Shown here piece after piece: positions 2-8,890 of a stretch of 38,151 bases of DNA. A program made the translations under genes and the position numbers. Each line of letters begins with the position of its first letter. Position 1 is the first letter of the stretch. The notes under the pieces were generated by a model. That model did no database searches. It was not told where the DNA came from and saw nothing but the letters and a program-made list of their open reading frames with translations. Source of the DNA: Flavobacteriales bacterium (GTDB taxonomy: Bacteria; Bacteroidota; Bacteroidia; NORP154); NCBI GenBank assembly GCA_012966015.1, contig DTRI01000094.1:1-38151 (forward strand), read 5' to 3'.

Positions 2-919
2 TTCAATAATCTTAAAGCTCTTACTCCGGGAATGTTCGGATATTCCATTCTAAGAAGCTCACTTGAAAGTCCTTTCTTCAATGATCTTTTTGATTCCCTG
101 TCCAAATTCGATATTCCTGTAGAAGGCCTCCATACCGAAACTGGCCCCGGCGTTTATGAAGCTGCCATCCTTTACGATGAGATACTTCCTGCAGCTGACA
201 GAGCTACGCTGTTCAAGACATCTGTAAAGGAGATCGCCTACAGACATGAGATCATTGCGAGCTTCATGGCCAAATGGAGTAAAGATCTCCCTGGATGCAG
301 TGGCCACGTGCATCAAAGTTTGTGGAATATGAAAAAGACAAGCAACTTATTTTACAATAAATCAGATAAGCATGGCATGAGTGAGCTGATGAAAAGTTAT
401 GTGGCAGGACAGCTGTATTGCCTGCCTCACATTCTGCCCATGTTCGCGCCAACCATTAATAGCTTTAAGAGATTGGTGGAAGGAGCCTGGGCTCCCACAA
501 CACTTACCTGGGGCGTAGATAACCGCACGACAGCACTTAGAGTTCTTAGCAGTAGCAGCAAGGCGGCAAGACTGGAAACTCGTGTTCCTGGATCTGATAC
601 GAATCCGTACATAACAATGGCTGCCAGCCTGGCTAGTGGGCTCTATGGAATTGAGAATAAGCTGAAGCTAAAACAACCCAATACACTGGGCAATGGATAC
701 CGTGATTTCAAATATGGGAAGCTCCCCAACTCCCTGGAGGAGGCCACGAAAGCCATGCGAAAATCTAAGTTAGCCAATGCACTATTCGGCAGTGAATTTG
801 TAGATCACTTTTTGATCACGAGAGAATGGGAATACCGTAACTACAACAAGCAGGTAAAGAAAAAGAGTAAAACCGCCATTAGTAATTGGGAGCTCAAGCG
901 ATACTTTGAAATCATCTAA
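2..919 (+). CDS. Glutamine synthetase family protein (probable gamma-glutamyl-amine ligase), 5' partial
   Basis: This is the C-terminal 305 residues of a glutamine-synthetase-fold ligase; the frame is open to the left edge, so the start lies outside the window. Visible family motifs are the GxxxHVHQS block (about nt 302-319), the NRTTALR block (about nt 521-541) and the RxExRxPGxDxNPY segment, which contribute to the glutamate/ATP site. The HTETGPGVYEAA segment and the absence of an adenylylation-loop-like C terminus make it closer to PuuA/lengsin-like ligases than to the housekeeping GlnA (family knowledge). The next gene starts 3 bp after its stop, and the operon also encodes an alcohol dehydrogenase, a gamma-glutamyl hydrolase and an aldehyde dehydrogenase. 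I therefore infer that it glutamylates an amine or amino alcohol in the cytoplasm. The substrate cannot be read from the sequence, and true glutamine synthesis is the less likely alternative. Confidence 0.87.
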   Translation, partial: FNNLKALTPGMFGYSILRSSLESPFFNDLFDSLSKFDIPVEGLHTETGPGVYEAAILYDEILPAADRATLFKTSVKEIAYRHEIIASFMAKWSKDLPGCSGHVHQSLWNMKKTSNLFYNKSDKHGMSELMKSYVAGQLYCLPHILPMFAPTINSFKRLVEGAWAPTTLTWGVDNRTTALRVLSSSSKAARLETRVPGSDTNPYITMAASLASGLYGIENKLKLKQPNTLGNGYRDFKYGKLPNSLEEATKAMRKSKLANALFGSEFVDHFLITREWEYRNYNKQVKKKSKTAISNWELKRYFEII

Positions 920-922
920 CTT

Positions 923-2071
923 TTGGACACAAGTCAACTATATTCGTTCAGCTTTCCAACTGATGTTAGGTTTGGTGCAGGTGCAGTCAAGGAACTAAGT
1001 GCTTACCTAAAGAAAAACAACCTGTCAGCACCACTTGTTGCTACCGACGCTAACGTAGCTGACCTGGATTTTTTCAAGTCGATTATTGAAGATCTGAGAA
1101 ACGCTAGCCTTAGGCCAACAATTTTTTCAGAGATTCATCCCAATCCAGTAAAATCAGATGTGATCCTGGGTGTTGAGCGATATGAAGCAGCCTCATGTGA
1201 CTCAATAATCGGAATTGGCGGAGGTGCGGGAATGGATGTGGCGCGCGCCATTGCATTGGGTATAAACAACAAAAGGGATCTTTTTGACTATGATGACCTG
1301 ATTGGCGGAGATAAGTATGTCACCGAACCGATTCCCCACTTCATTACCATACCCACTACAGCGGGAACGGGAAGTGAAGTTGGCCGAAGTGCTATTATAT
1401 CAGAAGATGAGACGAAGAAAAAGAGAATTCTGTTTCACCCCACCCTCCTGGCAAAAATGGTATATGCCGATCCGGAGCTGACCTTCGGCCTTCCTGCAAA
1501 CATTACCGCTGCAACCGGAATGGATGCCCTTACGCACAACATGGAGGCCTATCTCGCCAAAGGATTTAATCCACTCTGCGAGGGAATTGCCTTGGAAGGG
1601 ATGCGATTGATTATGGAGTCGCTTGAAACTGCAACGAACAATCCGGATGAAGAATCCAGGGCGAAGATGCTGGTCGCATCTCTAATGGGTGCTATTGCCT
1701 TTCAAAAGGGGCTGGGAATAGTGCACTCCCTGGCACATCCATTGTCCTCGCTTGTTGATATGCACCATGGCCTGGCCAATGCAATCTGTATCAGCAGAGG
1801 GCTGGAGTTCAATATTCCGGGACAAGAAGTTAAGTTTAGCAAAATGGCGCAGGTGATGGAATTAGAGAATCAATCTCCTGAAGGAGTAATCAACGCACTG
1901 AATGAGCTGAAATCAGCTGTTGGCATACCCGATGATTTGGGAAGCCAGGGTATTGTTTCTGATCATATTGAGGAATTGTCAGACCTGGCCATTAATGATT
2001 TTTGTCATCCGAACAATCCTATAGCAGTAAAGCGGGAAGATTTTAAAAGAATATACGAATCTCTTTTGTAA
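923..2071 (+). CDS. Iron-containing (type III) alcohol dehydrogenase
   Basis: A 382-residue NAD(P)-dependent oxidoreductase of the Fe-ADH family, interconverting an alcohol and an aldehyde. The nucleotide-binding GGGAGMD motif lies at residues 99-105 and PTTAGTGSE at 144-152. Metal ligands are D201, H205, H268 and H282, with the same 4/63/14 spacing as E. coli FucO, so the site looks intact. The start is TTG at 923, three bases after the upstream stop. The next in-frame Met falls inside the nucleotide-binding motif, so TTG is the only sensible start. It sits between the glutamyl ligase and the gamma-glutamyl hydrolase. I infer that it oxidises the hydroxyl of a gamma-glutamylated amino alcohol, handing an aldehyde to the dehydrogenase at 2838. 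Reduction in the opposite direction cannot be excluded. Confidence 0.9.
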   Translation: MDTSQLYSFSFPTDVRFGAGAVKELSAYLKKNNLSAPLVATDANVADLDFFKSIIEDLRNASLRPTIFSEIHPNPVKSDVILGVERYEAASCDSIIGIGGGAGMDVARAIALGINNKRDLFDYDDLIGGDKYVTEPIPHFITIPTTAGTGSEVGRSAIISEDETKKKRILFHPTLLAKMVYADPELTFGLPANITAATGMDALTHNMEAYLAKGFNPLCEGIALEGMRLIMESLETATNNPDEESRAKMLVASLMGAIAFQKGLGIVHSLAHPLSSLVDMHHGLANAICISRGLEFNIPGQEVKFSKMAQVMELENQSPEGVINALNELKSAVGIPDDLGSQGIVSDHIEELSDLAINDFCHPNNPIAVKREDFKRIYESLL

Positions 2072-2093
2072 TCGTCAGTAATGAGGTTATAAC

Positions 2094-2837
2094 ATGAAAA
2101 AAATAGGCGTAGCATCGGCATTTATGTATCCTGAACCGGAGCGACTGGTTTTTGGTAAGAAAACCTTGTGCTATTTGGAGAAGGATATGGGGCGCTACCT
2201 ATCTCAAGAGGGTGCCATGCCAATCCTCATACCAGACCTTGAAGATGATGAGTTAAGTGAATTCATTTCTGAAATGGATGGCTTTGTATTTCAGGGTGGA
2301 ACGGATATCGCACCCGAAACTTATGGGGAAGAACCCATTGAAAACGGAAAATGGAAAGGAGATCCAATTCGCGATGTCCATGAGCTTAAGATTATGGAAT
2401 ATGCGGTCAAACATGATAAGCCTGTATTTGGAATCTGCAGAGGATTTCAATTGATGAACGTCTATTTTGGGGGTACGCTGTATCAGGATATCAACACCCA
2501 GCTGCCCAATTCAATTGTTCACCGAGATGCTGAGCTCTACGATCAGCTCAATCATGAAATTGAAATTGGCTCATCCAGTATATTGGGTGAATTGTATGGA
2601 AAAGAAAATGTATTGAGTGTTAATTCCGTTCATCACCAGGGAGTGAAAGAGCTGGGAGAAAACCTCGACATTTTAGCCACATCCAAAGAAGATCAAATCA
2701 TAGAAGCTTTCAAGTGGAACCAATGCGATGCGGGAAAGGTCATGGGGGTACAGTGGCATCCGGAGTTCTTTCACAATTCAAAAGAACCGGTAATCGATGC
2801 GAATTCGATTTATCGTCTGTTTTTAGATTTTTGTTAA
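2094..2837 (+). CDS. Class-I glutamine amidotransferase-like gamma-glutamyl hydrolase (peptidase C26, PuuD-like)
   Basis: A 247-residue cytoplasmic hydrolase of the C26 family, which cleaves gamma-glutamyl amide bonds (as in PuuD, gamma-glutamyl-GABA hydrolase). The nucleophile is C115 in GICRGFQ. H222 and E224 in QWHPEFF complete the triad. The QGGTDIAPETYGEEP segment at 67-81 is characteristic of PuuD-like enzymes. Length matches the family. It begins 22 bp after the alcohol dehydrogenase, and its TAA directly abuts the ATG of the next gene, so the genes are almost certainly co-transcribed. In the inferred pathway it releases glutamate from the oxidised gamma-glutamyl product, recycling the activating group. 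I leave the symbol blank because the neighbouring alcohol dehydrogenase suggests a substrate other than putrescine. Confidence 0.88.
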   Translation: MKKIGVASAFMYPEPERLVFGKKTLCYLEKDMGRYLSQEGAMPILIPDLEDDELSEFISEMDGFVFQGGTDIAPETYGEEPIENGKWKGDPIRDVHELKIMEYAVKHDKPVFGICRGFQLMNVYFGGTLYQDINTQLPNSIVHRDAELYDQLNHEIEIGSSSILGELYGKENVLSVNSVHHQGVKELGENLDILATSKEDQIIEAFKWNQCDAGKVMGVQWHPEFFHNSKEPVIDANSIYRLFLDFC

Positions 2838-4208
2838 ATGGAAATAATTAATCCAGCTACCGAGGAGGTAATTAAAGAGATTCAGGGAGATACTTCCCAA
2901 ACGATTCTCGAAAAGTATGATCAGCTAAGGTTAGGGCAGGTGAGCTGGGCTAACATCCCGCTAGCGGATAGAATTAACATCATTCAAAAATTCAGTGATC
3001 TTCTAAAGACCAATATCGATAAATTGGCTTCTACTCTTACAGAAGAAATGGGTAAGCCTCTGTCCCAGTCTCTCAATGAAATCAAAGGTGCCAGGAAGAG
3101 AATAAAATTTTTTCTGGAAAACTCTGAAATGTGGCTGAGTACTGAAGTCGTACACACCGAAGATAATTTACAGGAAGAGATTAAATATGAACCATTGGGT
3201 GTGATTGCAAACATCTCGGCATGGAATTACCCTTACCTGGTAGGAGTTAATGTTTTCATCCCGGCATTAATAGGGGGCAACGCGGTGCTGTACAAACCTT
3301 CTGAACTCACCGCTCTCACGGGCCTGGAAATCCAGCGACTCATGCATGAAGCGGGAATACCAGAAAATGTTTTTCAAGCTGTCATTGGCGCCAAAGAAGC
3401 TGGAGAGGCTTTACTGGCATTACCATTAGATGGGTATTTCTTTACCGGCTCTTACAAGACCGGCAAATACATCTATGAAAAGGTCGCACCAAAAATGGTA
3501 CAGTGCCAAATGGAGCTGGGTGGTAAGGACCCTCTGTATGTAACTGATGATGTTGAAAATATTCATGAAGTTGCCCAAGCCGCGGCGGGTGGAGCCTTTT
3601 ACAATGCCGGACAAAGCTGTTGTTCTGTAGAGCGCATATACGTTCATGAAAAATCAGTTGATCGATTCATAGACGCGTTTGTTAAAGAAGTTGAATCTTA
3701 TCAAATAGGTGGCCCAACCATTTCTGATGTTTTCATCGGACCACTGGCCAGGGAACCGCAATTGGAATACCTAAAGACCCAGGTAGATGAGGCCATTGAA
3801 CAGGGTGCTGAGCTAAAAACCGGCGGTAAAATTGCAGATTGTACAGGATATTATTTTCAGCCTACCGTACTCTCCAATGTAACACACGATATGCGTGTAA
3901 TGAAAGAGGAATCATTTGGCCCGGTGATTGGAATTCAGTCCGTAGCCAGCGACGACGAAGCAATTTCACTGATGCAAGACACTGTATATGGTTTAACAGC
4001 TTCCGTGTATACCCGTAATAAGGACCGGGCTGATTCGATCATGAAAAAGATGAAGACAGGTTCAGTGTATTGGAATTGCTGTGATCGGGTGAGTGCCAAC
4101 TTACCCTGGTCAGGAAGGGGCAACTCTGGAATTGGATCTACCTTATCCCACCTTGGCATCCGGGCATTTGTACAGCCCAAGGCCTACCATTTCAATGGGC
4201 CTCAATAA
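2838..4208 (+). CDS. NAD(P)-dependent aldehyde dehydrogenase
   Basis: A 456-residue aldehyde dehydrogenase that oxidises an aldehyde to a carboxylate. Key elements are N130 in the SAWNYP motif, K153 in the KPSE cofactor motif, the general base E226 in ELGGKDP, and catalytic Cys at 261 within GQSCC (C262 is adjacent). The C-terminal ESFGPVIGI motif is also present. The size is typical of succinate-semialdehyde-type enzymes. The ATG follows the previous stop with no spacer, making it the last gene of the four-gene operon. I infer that it oxidises a gamma-glutamyl-amino aldehyde, the role PuuC plays in the Puu pathway. Nothing in the sequence fixes the substrate. No clear terminator was seen before the convergent gene ending at 4322. 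Confidence 0.9.
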   Translation: MEIINPATEEVIKEIQGDTSQTILEKYDQLRLGQVSWANIPLADRINIIQKFSDLLKTNIDKLASTLTEEMGKPLSQSLNEIKGARKRIKFFLENSEMWLSTEVVHTEDNLQEEIKYEPLGVIANISAWNYPYLVGVNVFIPALIGGNAVLYKPSELTALTGLEIQRLMHEAGIPENVFQAVIGAKEAGEALLALPLDGYFFTGSYKTGKYIYEKVAPKMVQCQMELGGKDPLYVTDDVENIHEVAQAAAGGAFYNAGQSCCSVERIYVHEKSVDRFIDAFVKEVESYQIGGPTISDVFIGPLAREPQLEYLKTQVDEAIEQGAELKTGGKIADCTGYYFQPTVLSNVTHDMRVMKEESFGPVIGIQSVASDDEAISLMQDTVYGLTASVYTRNKDRADSIMKKMKTGSVYWNCCDRVSANLPWSGRGNSGIGSTLSHLGIRAFVQPKAYHFNGPQ

Positions 4209-4321: not shown

Positions 4322-5248
4322 TTATAATCTTGTATATCCTTTCTCCTTGAGCAGATCGTTGGCGAGGTCTGGGTAATCTGTAATCAGCCCATCCACTCCT
4401 ACATCCAGTAGTTCTATCATGGAGCCTTTGTCATTAACTGTCCACGGAATAACTTTCATGTTATTCTGAGCAGCATACTCCACTAGCTCGGCGTTGACCA
4501 AAAAGAAATTAGGACTGTAGATTTCAGGAATGAAGCCAAGCAGCTTCAGGTTTTCTTCAAAGTCCGAATTTTCTGCAATTAAGAATGCCAACGCTATATC
4601 CGGGAATGTCCTATTGGCAACCATCAATATTCGAGGGTCAAAGGACTGGATGTTACACACTTTTTCAATATTTTTTTCCACGATGACTTCCATCAGCAAA
4701 TCCACGAACTCTGCAGGCTTGGGATGATATTTTTCATCCCATCCCTGCACGCTCTTCGCCTCAATATTGTAGTAAACCAGAGGTAGGGAATTTTTCTCTC
4801 TATACTCTTCAACCGCATCTATTACATCCGAGAGTAAGGGCTTATGTGTCTTCATTTTCGTCTGTTCAGGAAATCGATCGAGAAGCTTGGAACCACAGTC
4901 GAACTTTGCGATGTCTTCGTAATTCATCTTGTACAAATTAAAAGAATCCTCCATGTTCACTCCTATCTCCTGCCCTGTGGAATCGTAGCATATTTCTGGG
5001 GAAAGAAAAGGTTCATGGGAAAGAAGCACCTTTTTATCTTTGGTGATCACCACATCCATCTCCAGGGTCGAAACGCCTATTTCCAACGCTTTTATAAATC
5101 CAGCAATGGTATTTTCCGGCATCAGCCCCCGACAACCCCGGTGACCCTGCAAATCTATTTTGTTTTGTTCCTTCACTCCTTCTGAACAGCTAAAGCTCAA
5201 TACGCTGACAAGTAGCAGCACCAGGATCTTGACAGAATTATTACGCAT
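4322..5248 (-). CDS. Glycerophosphodiester phosphodiesterase lipoprotein (GlpQ-like)
   Basis: A 308-residue GDPD-fold enzyme that hydrolyses glycerophosphodiesters to glycerol-3-phosphate and an alcohol. The N terminus is a lipoprotein signal: hydrophobic residues 8-18 followed by the lipobox LSFSC, with lipidated C21. Catalytic residues are H36 and R37 (HRG), E45 (PENT), the metal ligands E63 and D65 (LEMDV) and H78 (SHEP). The C-terminal GVDGLITDYPD motif is also present. It is therefore probably membrane-anchored outside the cytoplasm. Its start overlaps the end of the upstream monoacylglycerol-lipase-like gene by 8 bp, implying co-transcription and a joint role in dismantling phospholipid remnants. 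The family call is secure; the preferred head group is unknown. Confidence 0.92.
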   Translation of the reverse strand: MRNNSVKILVLLLVSVLSFSCSEGVKEQNKIDLQGHRGCRGLMPENTIAGFIKALEIGVSTLEMDVVITKDKKVLLSHEPFLSPEICYDSTGQEIGVNMEDSFNLYKMNYEDIAKFDCGSKLLDRFPEQTKMKTHKPLLSDVIDAVEEYREKNSLPLVYYNIEAKSVQGWDEKYHPKPAEFVDLLMEVIVEKNIEKVCNIQSFDPRILMVANRTFPDIALAFLIAENSDFEENLKLLGFIPEIYSPNFFLVNAELVEYAAQNNMKVIPWTVNDKGSMIELLDVGVDGLITDYPDLANDLLKEKGYTRL

Positions 5249-6104
5249 CCGCCGGTTCTTCTATGTTGGATTCTGCAGTTTGTTGCAATATCCACGAATT
5301 CCAGCATTCAAGCACTTTCTCTTTTTCCGGATCATTGTGCGGCTCATGCGGCATTCCCTCCCACATCTGGAATGTAGCATTCGGCCCCGCCTGTTCCGCG
5401 AAGTCTTTGGAAGCTGCTGCGGATGTCAATTTATCTATACTTCCGTGTGTTACCAGGGCTGGAATATTCAGCTTGCTCGCATTATCAAGTGCCCAATAGC
5501 CAGCTTCATAAACATTCAAGAACAAGGACGCTGAGATCTTAGAATGCACCAATGGATCTTCCTCGTATGCTTTCACCACTGCCGGATCCCGGCTAAGGTC
5601 ATTGGCATCTAATTCATTGTCCTGTGTGAACGCAGGATAAATTCCTGACATAAACTTTCCAAGCGATACTTTAAAGGCAGGTGGCTCGAATGCTAATTTG
5701 AACCAGCCAGATGAAATTATTGCAGCAGCTAAAGGCTTAGTATCACCTCTAAGTATATAATTTGCCACCAAATTTCCGCCCATACTATGTCCATAAGTGA
5801 TTATTGGGATATGGGGAAACATGTCACGAGCATGTACAACTGACCGGCACACATCCGCCATGAGCACATCATAATTCAGGGCGTGGCCTCTTTTCCCATC
5901 CGATTTACCATGACCCCTGGCATCTGTACCTAAAACAGCTGTATTTCGTGCATTAAAATAGTCGGCTACATGCTGGTAACGCCCTATATGTTCACCGAGT
6001 CCGTGAACAATTAAGAGTACTCTTTCTGGATTTTCTGGAATCCAGCTGGTGCCTCTTAGCAAGGTGCCATCATCTGCGGTAATCTCATAGTTATCCTGAC
6101 GCAT
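5241..6104 (-). CDS. Alpha/beta hydrolase, monoacylglycerol-lipase-like
   Basis: A 287-residue serine hydrolase resembling monoacylglycerol lipase/lysophospholipase (Hydrolase_4). The oxyanion motif is VHGLGEH at about 33-39, and the conserved DARGHGKSDGKRGH segment lies at 61-74. The nucleophile is S107 in GHSMG. The acid is D224 in HGSIDKLT and the base is H253 in GMPHEPHND, which closely matches eukaryotic and bacterial monoglyceride lipases. No signal peptide is seen, so it is likely cytoplasmic. It is the first gene of a two-gene minus-strand unit and overlaps the glycerophosphodiesterase by 8 bp. The natural substrate (monoacylglycerol or lysophospholipid) is inferred from family resemblance and the neighbour. 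Confidence 0.88.
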   Translation of the reverse strand: MRQDNYEITADDGTLLRGTSWIPENPERVLLIVHGLGEHIGRYQHVADYFNARNTAVLGTDARGHGKSDGKRGHALNYDVLMADVCRSVVHARDMFPHIPIITYGHSMGGNLVANYILRGDTKPLAAAIISSGWFKLAFEPPAFKVSLGKFMSGIYPAFTQDNELDANDLSRDPAVVKAYEEDPLVHSKISASLFLNVYEAGYWALDNASKLNIPALVTHGSIDKLTSAAASKDFAEQAGPNATFQMWEGMPHEPHNDPEKEKVLECWNSWILQQTAESNIEEPADA

Positions 6105-7427: not shown

Positions 7428-7661
7428 ATGTTTATACCTCTAGAACCTGACAAATACTATCATATATGCAATCACGCAAATGACAGCGAAAATCTAAAGG
7501 ATTGGGAATTTTCTTCTTACAACTCCATACTATCTGCACAAGAATCAAATTTAGTCAGCAAAGAGGTGATAATATGGTTTAAAGATCGAGATAACTTTAT
7601 CTATTGCCATGAATCATTGACAACGGATGTTGAGGTTAAATTACAAATTGAAACTCTATGA
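7428..7661 (+). pseudogene. Internally deleted RAYT/Y1 (IS200-like) transposase relic
   Basis: A 77-residue open frame made of two ends of a Bacteroidota REP-associated tyrosine transposase. Residues 1-23 contain the start of such proteins (PLEPDKYYHICNHAND, then SENL). Residues 24-62 match the typical C terminus (KDWEFSSYNSI, EVIIWFKDRDNFI, then H). Everything between is missing, including the HUH motif and the catalytic Tyr helix, so it cannot be an active transposase. The junction lies near 7494-7500. The deletion kept the reading frame, and the TGA stop overlaps the lysA ATG as ATGA. The frame could therefore still be translated and coupled to lysA. The relic call comes from recognising the protein pattern, not from alignment. 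Confidence 0.75.
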
Positions 7662-8890
7662 ATCTAGTAAACAACAGATACGAAACCGGAGGAGTAGACC
7701 TGCTTAACATTGCAGAGGAGTTTGGCACACCTGTTTATGTGTACGACGCTCAAAAGATACGGGATCAATATAAGCTGCTCACTTCTGCATTTTCCGATGT
7801 AAATGTTAAAATTCGTTATGCCTGCAAGGCGCTGACCAATCAGAATATTCTCAGGTTGTTGAAAGGACTCGGATCAGGGTTAGACACCGTTTCTATTGAA
7901 GAGGTGGAGCTGGGAATAAAGGCTGGCTACCAACCTGAAGAAATTATTTTCACACCCAACGGTGTTTCAATTGAGGAGATTAACAAGGCAGTTGAAATTG
8001 GTGTGACCATAAACATAGACAACATTAGCATCCTGGAGCAATTTGGAAATATCCATGGGGCAAAGGTTCCTATCTGTATCAGGTTGAACCCACATATTCT
8101 GGCAGGAGGTAATTATCAAATATCGACCGGGCATATTGACTCTAAATTTGGTATTTCTATTCACCAGCTGCGGCATGTGGAGAGAATAGTAGAATCTACA
8201 GGGTTAAAAGTTAACGGCTTACACATGCACACAGGATCAGAAATAAAGAACATTGACGTATTTTTAAGAGGCGTTGATATTTTATTTGAGTCTACAAGCT
8301 ATTTTAAGGAGCTGGACTTCATCGACCTCGGCAGCGGATTTAAAGTAGCCTCCGCTCCAGATGAAGATGCCACCGACATTATAGCGCTAGGCAAGGCCCT
8401 GTCGCAACGATTCAATGAATTTTGCAAAGAATACGGTAAAGAGCTTGAGCTTTGGTTTGAGCCTGGTAAATTTTTAGTGAGTGAAGCGGGTACCTTCCTG
8501 GCTAAAGTGAATGTGGTTAAACAAACTACAGCCACCGTCTTCGCGGGTGTTGATTCTGGGTTCAATCATTTGATTCGCCCCATGTTTTATAACGCATATC
8601 ATCATATATGTAACATATCCAACGCCGCAGGAGTTGAGAGGATCTATACTGTTTCGGGCTATATCTGCGAAACGGACAATTTTGCCTGGGACAGAAAAAT
8701 TACGGAGATAAAGGAAGGCGACATACTTGCTTTCCAAAATGCAGGCGCCTATGGTTTTGTGATGGCCTCCAACTACAATTCCAGGCTTCGTCCACCGGAG
8801 GTTTTAATAAATAACGGAAAAGCACAGCTGATCAGAAAACGTGAAGAGCTGGAAGATAATCTCAGGAATGAGATAGAAGTTTCACTCTGA
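7658..8890 (+). CDS. lysA: Diaminopimelate decarboxylase
   Basis: A 410-residue fold-III PLP enzyme converting meso-diaminopimelate to lysine, the last step of lysine biosynthesis. The Schiff-base lysine is K57 in RYACKALTN. The HTGSEI motif follows at about residues 189-194, with the glycine-rich DLGSGFK phosphate-binding segment and the substrate motif EPGK (EPGR in many homologues). The C-terminal GYICETDNF block supplies the active-site Cys donated across the dimer. The start at 7658 gives the family's usual N terminus (NNRYETGGVDLLNIA) and overlaps the stop of the transposase relic by ATGA. No promoter was recognised between the relic and the gene, so transcription probably begins upstream of the palindrome at 7374. 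Confidence 0.93.
   Translation: MNLVNNRYETGGVDLLNIAEEFGTPVYVYDAQKIRDQYKLLTSAFSDVNVKIRYACKALTNQNILRLLKGLGSGLDTVSIEEVELGIKAGYQPEEIIFTPNGVSIEEINKAVEIGVTINIDNISILEQFGNIHGAKVPICIRLNPHILAGGNYQISTGHIDSKFGISIHQLRHVERIVESTGLKVNGLHMHTGSEIKNIDVFLRGVDILFESTSYFKELDFIDLGSGFKVASAPDEDATDIIALGKALSQRFNEFCKEYGKELELWFEPGKFLVSEAGTFLAKVNVVKQTTATVFAGVDSGFNHLIRPMFYNAYHHICNISNAAGVERIYTVSGYICETDNFAWDRKITEIKEGDILAFQNAGAYGFVMASNYNSRLRPPEVLINNGKAQLIRKREELEDNLRNEIEVSL

Follow-up and report, generated by a model that had tools for sequence, protein, structure and literature searches.

A Bacteroidota operon that probably degrades ethanolamine to glycine through gamma-glutamylated intermediates

The window, i.e. the whole stretch of DNA analysed here (38,151 nucleotides), corresponds to the entire contig C94 of a Flavobacteriales bacterium assembly consisting of 421 contigs and 79% complete. 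The following genes were called in its first part:

2..919, + strand: glutamine synthetase (GS)-superfamily gamma-glutamyl-amine ligase, C-terminal 305 residues (Gln-synt_C, 278 bits; open 5' at the contig end)
923..2071, + strand: iron-containing alcohol dehydrogenase (Fe-ADH), predicted gamma-glutamylethanolamide dehydrogenase (TTG start; PF00465, 147 bits; C-terminal domain PF25137, 150 bits)
2094..2837, + strand: peptidase C26 / PuuD-type gamma-glutamyl hydrolase, predicted gamma-glutamylglycine hydrolase (PF07722, 188 bits)
2838..4208, + strand: aldehyde dehydrogenase (ALDH), predicted gamma-glutamyl-aminoacetaldehyde dehydrogenase (PF00171, Aldedh, 420 bits)
4322..5248, - strand: glycerophosphodiester phosphodiesterase (GDPD) with a lipoprotein-like signal, VLSFSC (PF03009, 112 bits)
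5241..6104, - strand: alpha/beta hydrolase, monoglyceride-lipase-like (Hydrolase_4, PF12146, 213 bits), overlapping the GDPD gene

The ligase, Fe-ADH, C26 and ALDH genes lie on the same strand with intergenic gaps of 3, 22 and 0 bp, and their Pfam matches are all well above the Pfam cut-offs. ORF calls and Pfam thus agree with the first-pass annotation, which had described this four-gene block at 2-4208 with the same gaps. The same block recurs in named Bacteroidota, ruling out a chance arrangement. As read by eye, the metal-ligand motifs of the Fe-ADH (GMDALTH and VHSLAHPL..MHHG), the ALDH motifs (NISAWNY, ELGGK and GQSC) and the C26 motifs (GICRG and GVQWHPE) are intact. In the truncated ligase, the GS catalytic residues E212, E220, H269, R321, R339, R344, R355, E357 and R359 are conserved, so that the catalytic residues, claimed earlier to be intact, are conserved wherever they are present; E129 and E131 fall in the missing part and are invariant in 80 relatives. 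PDB relatives of the C26 protein include PuuD (6vtv) and Lin1909 (3fij). For the ALDH, a stringent PDB search gave no matches. The GDPD and lipase-like genes (4322-6104) are convergent to the operon. Further along, the PLP decarboxylase at 7658-8890 might have connected the locus with polyamines, but it proved to be LysA (diaminopimelate decarboxylase; 385 bits, cut-off 298) and is apparently unrelated to the operon, so this link was discarded.

The start of the ligase lies elsewhere in the same genome. Residues 1-86 are encoded at the end of contig C334 (positions 2-259, minus strand), together with a permease gene absent from the window, and a stretch of about 70 ligase residues falls into the gap between C334 and C94; the join of the two contigs is presumed, the junction itself being unsequenced. 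The C334 permease scores 437 bits against TIGR00908, the NCBIfam ethanolamine permease (cut-off 381.75), and shares 91% identity with its counterpart in a genus relative, where the permease gene directly precedes that of the ligase. In close relatives (ligase identity 88% and 85%), a 439-residue gene directly upstream of the ligase scores 436 bits against the same model, and its cut-off is likewise exceeded in three relatives that are more distant, again by the gene upstream of the ligase. TIGR00908 is a curated sequence model, with transport predicted from sequence. Ligase and above-threshold permease occur together in 8 of 9 genomes, compared with a frequency of 10 in 40 over the whole set (p = 5e-6, uncorrected for relatedness). 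Looking upstream for transporters, as had been proposed, therefore yielded an ethanolamine-type permease linked to the operon, on C334 and in relatives. No amine oxidase was seen upstream of the ligase on C334 or in close relatives. The gene in this position passes TIGR00908 and is not an amine oxidase or PuuB, in line with the earlier statement that the operon lacks such an enzyme.

The ligase falls outside the housekeeping glutamine synthetases. The truncated protein scores 178 bits against TIGR00653 (cut-off 429) and 164 bits against TIGR03105 (cut-off 470), and a full-length relative, with 206 and 185 bits respectively, also remains below both cut-offs. Where E. coli GS has its ammonium-site Glu327, all 80 ligases have a Trp, which is consistent with an amine substrate without being diagnostic, as the type III GS-like GlnT has a Trp too. 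In both FastTree and IQ-TREE analyses the ligase joins IpuC and homologues from Proteobacteria (support 1.0 and 100/100), so that the placement in a GS-superfamily tree proposed earlier shows no grouping with GlnA, GlnT or type III GS. It is also separate from PuuA and from the ethanolamine-type clade of Ruegeria and 5DM3, the Chromohalobacter salexigens protein. A topology constrained to unite the Bacteroidota ligases with 5DM3 and its clade fails the AU test (p = 5e-7). In this tree 5DM3, 11zs and 8wwu (the latter being NpaA1) are represented by aligned segments only; the tree also contains a Streptomyces plasmid ligase (L155), considered at first as a stand-in for GlnA4, but its gene context shows that it is not GlnA4.

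A scan of GTDB representatives provided 80 loci, picked by ligase similarity and not phylogenetically independent, nearly all of which carry titles of Bacteroidota groups, including Pedobacter, Chitinophaga, Spirosoma, Emticicia and Cyclobacterium. Only three gene families recur around the ligase in most of them: the Fe-ADH (59/80), the permease (57/80) and the C26/ALDH genes (52/80). After setting aside eight ligase loci with a second gene context, the permease is present in 54 of the 64 loci with enough upstream sequence, and all five genes (permease-ligase-FeADH-C26-ALDH) are found in 37 of the 49 loci with both flanks. Comparing gene order across Bacteroidota thus bears out that the set is conserved together. 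Several loci have the ligase and permease without the remaining operon genes nearby. The C26 proteins of the Bacteroidota operons form two groups, and in seven of the 80 loci (L072, L073, L074, L078, L081, L082 and L107; one Pfam-checked) C26 and ALDH share a single reading frame of about 500-706 residues. EutB was detected in none of the 40 genomes searched (own genome and relatives; E. coli as positive control), so the EutBC ethanolamine pathway was not recognised there.

The second context comprises eight ligases of the same subfamily in Mucilaginibacter, Spirosoma, Persicitalea and Fodinibius (L146:5522-11438; L139, L136-L138, L142; L100, L143). A 345-residue ORF lies directly downstream in all eight loci, a HAD-IIA phosphatase is present in seven and a GSII-like glutamine synthetase is located upstream in five. 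The ORF has no Pfam match. Its motif VDWNIGNF...WDYDWF resembles APH-fold kinases, and its structural model (pLDDT 57, low confidence) gives amicoumacin and aminopropanol kinases as best matches.

The two dehydrogenases point to known ethanolamine operons. Both the Fe-ADH and the ALDH group with enzymes of the Ruegeria, Salipiger and Aminobacter operons, with support 1.0 each in a small outgroup set. These operons carry an N-formylglutamate amidohydrolase (FGase), and that of Ruegeria also a TRAP transporter. An operon with FGase and TRAP genes is also reported from Phaeobacter; its proteins increase during growth on phosphorylethanolamine, and ethanolamine is bound by EtoX (PMC10132767). A gamma-glutamylation pathway for ethanolamine is known from Chromohalobacter salexigens and from the EtoX operon of Phaeobacter sp. 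MED193 (PMC10132767). The present operon shares with it a ligase, an alcohol dehydrogenase, an aldehyde dehydrogenase, a gamma-glutamylglycine hydrolase and ethanolamine uptake, the activities here being predicted, and its Fe-ADH and ALDH are closest to these systems among the sampled sequences. However, compared with Chromohalobacter and Roseobacter, its ligase is excluded from the 5DM3/Ruegeria clade, a C26 protein takes the place of the FGase, the transporter is an APC permease and not TRAP, and the gene order differs; it therefore does not belong to the EtoX-type operon lineage. In Legionella lytica, a ligase of the window's side of the tree is accompanied by an ALDH, an Fe-ADH and a class I amidotransferase, from which it follows that pathway partners have been exchanged. 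Two further arrangements were observed: in a Bacteroidota relative (G007, L032:7542-13462) a ligase sister to the 5DM3/Ruegeria clade adjoins an ethanolamine permease and TRAP genes, and a Shinella plasmid operon (L149:2531-9134) combines a divergent ligase and a Pot-type ABC transporter with an Fe-ADH close to that of the window.

Other glutamylation pathways resemble the operon in part. GlnA4 of Streptomyces coelicolor catalyses the first step of a described ethanolamine route (PMC6529630). As here, glutamylation of ethanolamine is followed by a predicted dehydrogenase, aldehyde dehydrogenase and amidohydrolase, but the genes listed for the GlnA4 cluster include a short-chain dehydrogenase and lack an Fe-ADH (PMC6529630). 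The nearest annotated ligase is IpuC (tree support 100) of the isopropylamine pathway, encoded on pTC1 of Paenarthrobacter aurescens TC1. That locus likewise has C26-type amidotransferases and an ALDH nearby, but it contains a cytochrome P450, ferredoxin, ferredoxin reductase and an SDR, and no Fe-ADH.

Taken together, the locus and its relatives contain a non-housekeeping GS-superfamily ligase, alcohol and aldehyde dehydrogenases and a gamma-glutamyl hydrolase that is a C26 protein and not an FGase. The operon very probably encodes a gamma-glutamyl catabolic route from ethanolamine to glycine. The permease on C334 would import ethanolamine, which the ligase would join to glutamate at the expense of ATP, giving gamma-glutamylethanolamide. 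The Fe-ADH would oxidise the hydroxyl group of this compound to the aldehyde, the ALDH would convert the aldehyde to gamma-glutamylglycine, and the C26 hydrolase would finally release glycine and regenerate glutamate. Gene identities, motifs, operon conservation, the permease model match, ligase lineage and fusions were computed; from these we infer all substrates, the order of reactions, the product and the link to the GDPD. The first-pass annotation had suggested that an amino alcohol is protected as its gamma-glutamyl amide, oxidised twice and released as an amino acid. This idea is supported, and ethanolamine is favoured among its candidates because the upstream gene passes the ethanolamine permease model.

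The neighbouring GDPD suggests where the ethanolamine comes from. Being of the lipoprotein type, it may free ethanolamine from glycerophosphoethanolamine outside the cytoplasm, prior to import, pointing to phospholipid as the possible supply. Three relatives from the same family (L024, L025 and L026) have the GDPD gene beside the operon too, and two of them (L025 and L026) also conserve the alpha/beta hydrolase; among the 80 loci, the GDPD was not found as a recurrent ligase neighbour beyond the window's family.

The same chemistry might act on another amino alcohol, with alaninol, 1-amino-2-propanol or 3-aminopropanol yielding alanine, another amino acid or beta-alanine. The ligase does not fall within the ethanolamine lineage of Chromohalobacter and Roseobacter and is closer to IpuC, annotated as a gamma-glutamylisopropylamide synthetase, so its specificity could differ. 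Furthermore, amine ligases of the superfamily can be broad, and one report announces a broad-substrate glutamylating enzyme (PMC11335346); the literature search returned no paper on the substrate range of IpuC. However, the operon permease passes a curated ethanolamine model, a GDPD able to yield ethanolamine adjoins the operon in the family, and both dehydrogenases cluster with those of ethanolamine-type operons, making a different amino alcohol unlikely, though the most credible of the alternatives.

Far less probable is a polyamine pathway of the Puu type, acting on putrescine with the Fe-ADH in place of the amine oxidase. The ligase, ALDH and C26 hydrolase superfamilies are indeed common to E. 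coli Puu, but that pathway uses the amine oxidase PuuB, a homologue of which was not seen in the 80 loci, and an alcohol dehydrogenase would not be expected to oxidise a terminal amine. In addition, the ligases score only 139-199 bits against the gamma-glutamylputrescine synthetase model NF045547 (cut-off 650), PuuA branches apart, and the nearby PLP decarboxylase is LysA and not an ornithine decarboxylase, so the Puu pathway is disfavoured. Gamma-glutamylethanolamide or a relative could also be an end product (storage, osmolyte or signal), with the oxidoreductases serving something else. The eight same-lineage ligases without oxidoreductases, found beside the GSII-like gene, the APH-like ORF and the HAD phosphatase, would fit this idea. 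For the window's clade, the tight, conserved Fe-ADH/C26/ALDH order and the single-frame C26-ALDH genes make linear catabolism more likely, and such an end product is very improbable.

With ethanolamine catabolism as the preferred reading, the chemistry is not new; it is the ligase lineage, hydrolase family and transporter that set the Bacteroidota version apart. The first-pass annotation's description as a little-described route stands in part: no description of an ethanolamine-to-glycine gamma-glutamyl route in Bacteroidota or Pedobacter was found in the literature searched, but the chemistry itself is known in Chromohalobacter, Phaeobacter and, for the first step, Streptomyces (PMC10132767, PMC6529630). 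Eut-independent use of ethanolamine is attributed to Proteobacteria and Actinobacteria in a recent review, which makes no mention of Bacteroidota (PMC9397018). There is an even chance that the route was put together independently in Bacteroidota, with a ligase of the IpuC lineage and a C26 protein of the PuuD type in place of the proteobacterial ligase and FGase, hydrolase and ALDH joined in some lineages, and phospholipid head groups fed in via the lipoprotein GDPD. The Bacteroidota version is widespread in the phylum, and since a ligase match is present in 42 of 396 genomes drawn from Bacteroidota (a count that includes other-context ligases), surveys of ethanolamine use that rely on eut genes or on EtoX as a TRAP marker would overlook carriers. 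The locus also provides a concrete test of how amine specificity changes in GS-like ligases.
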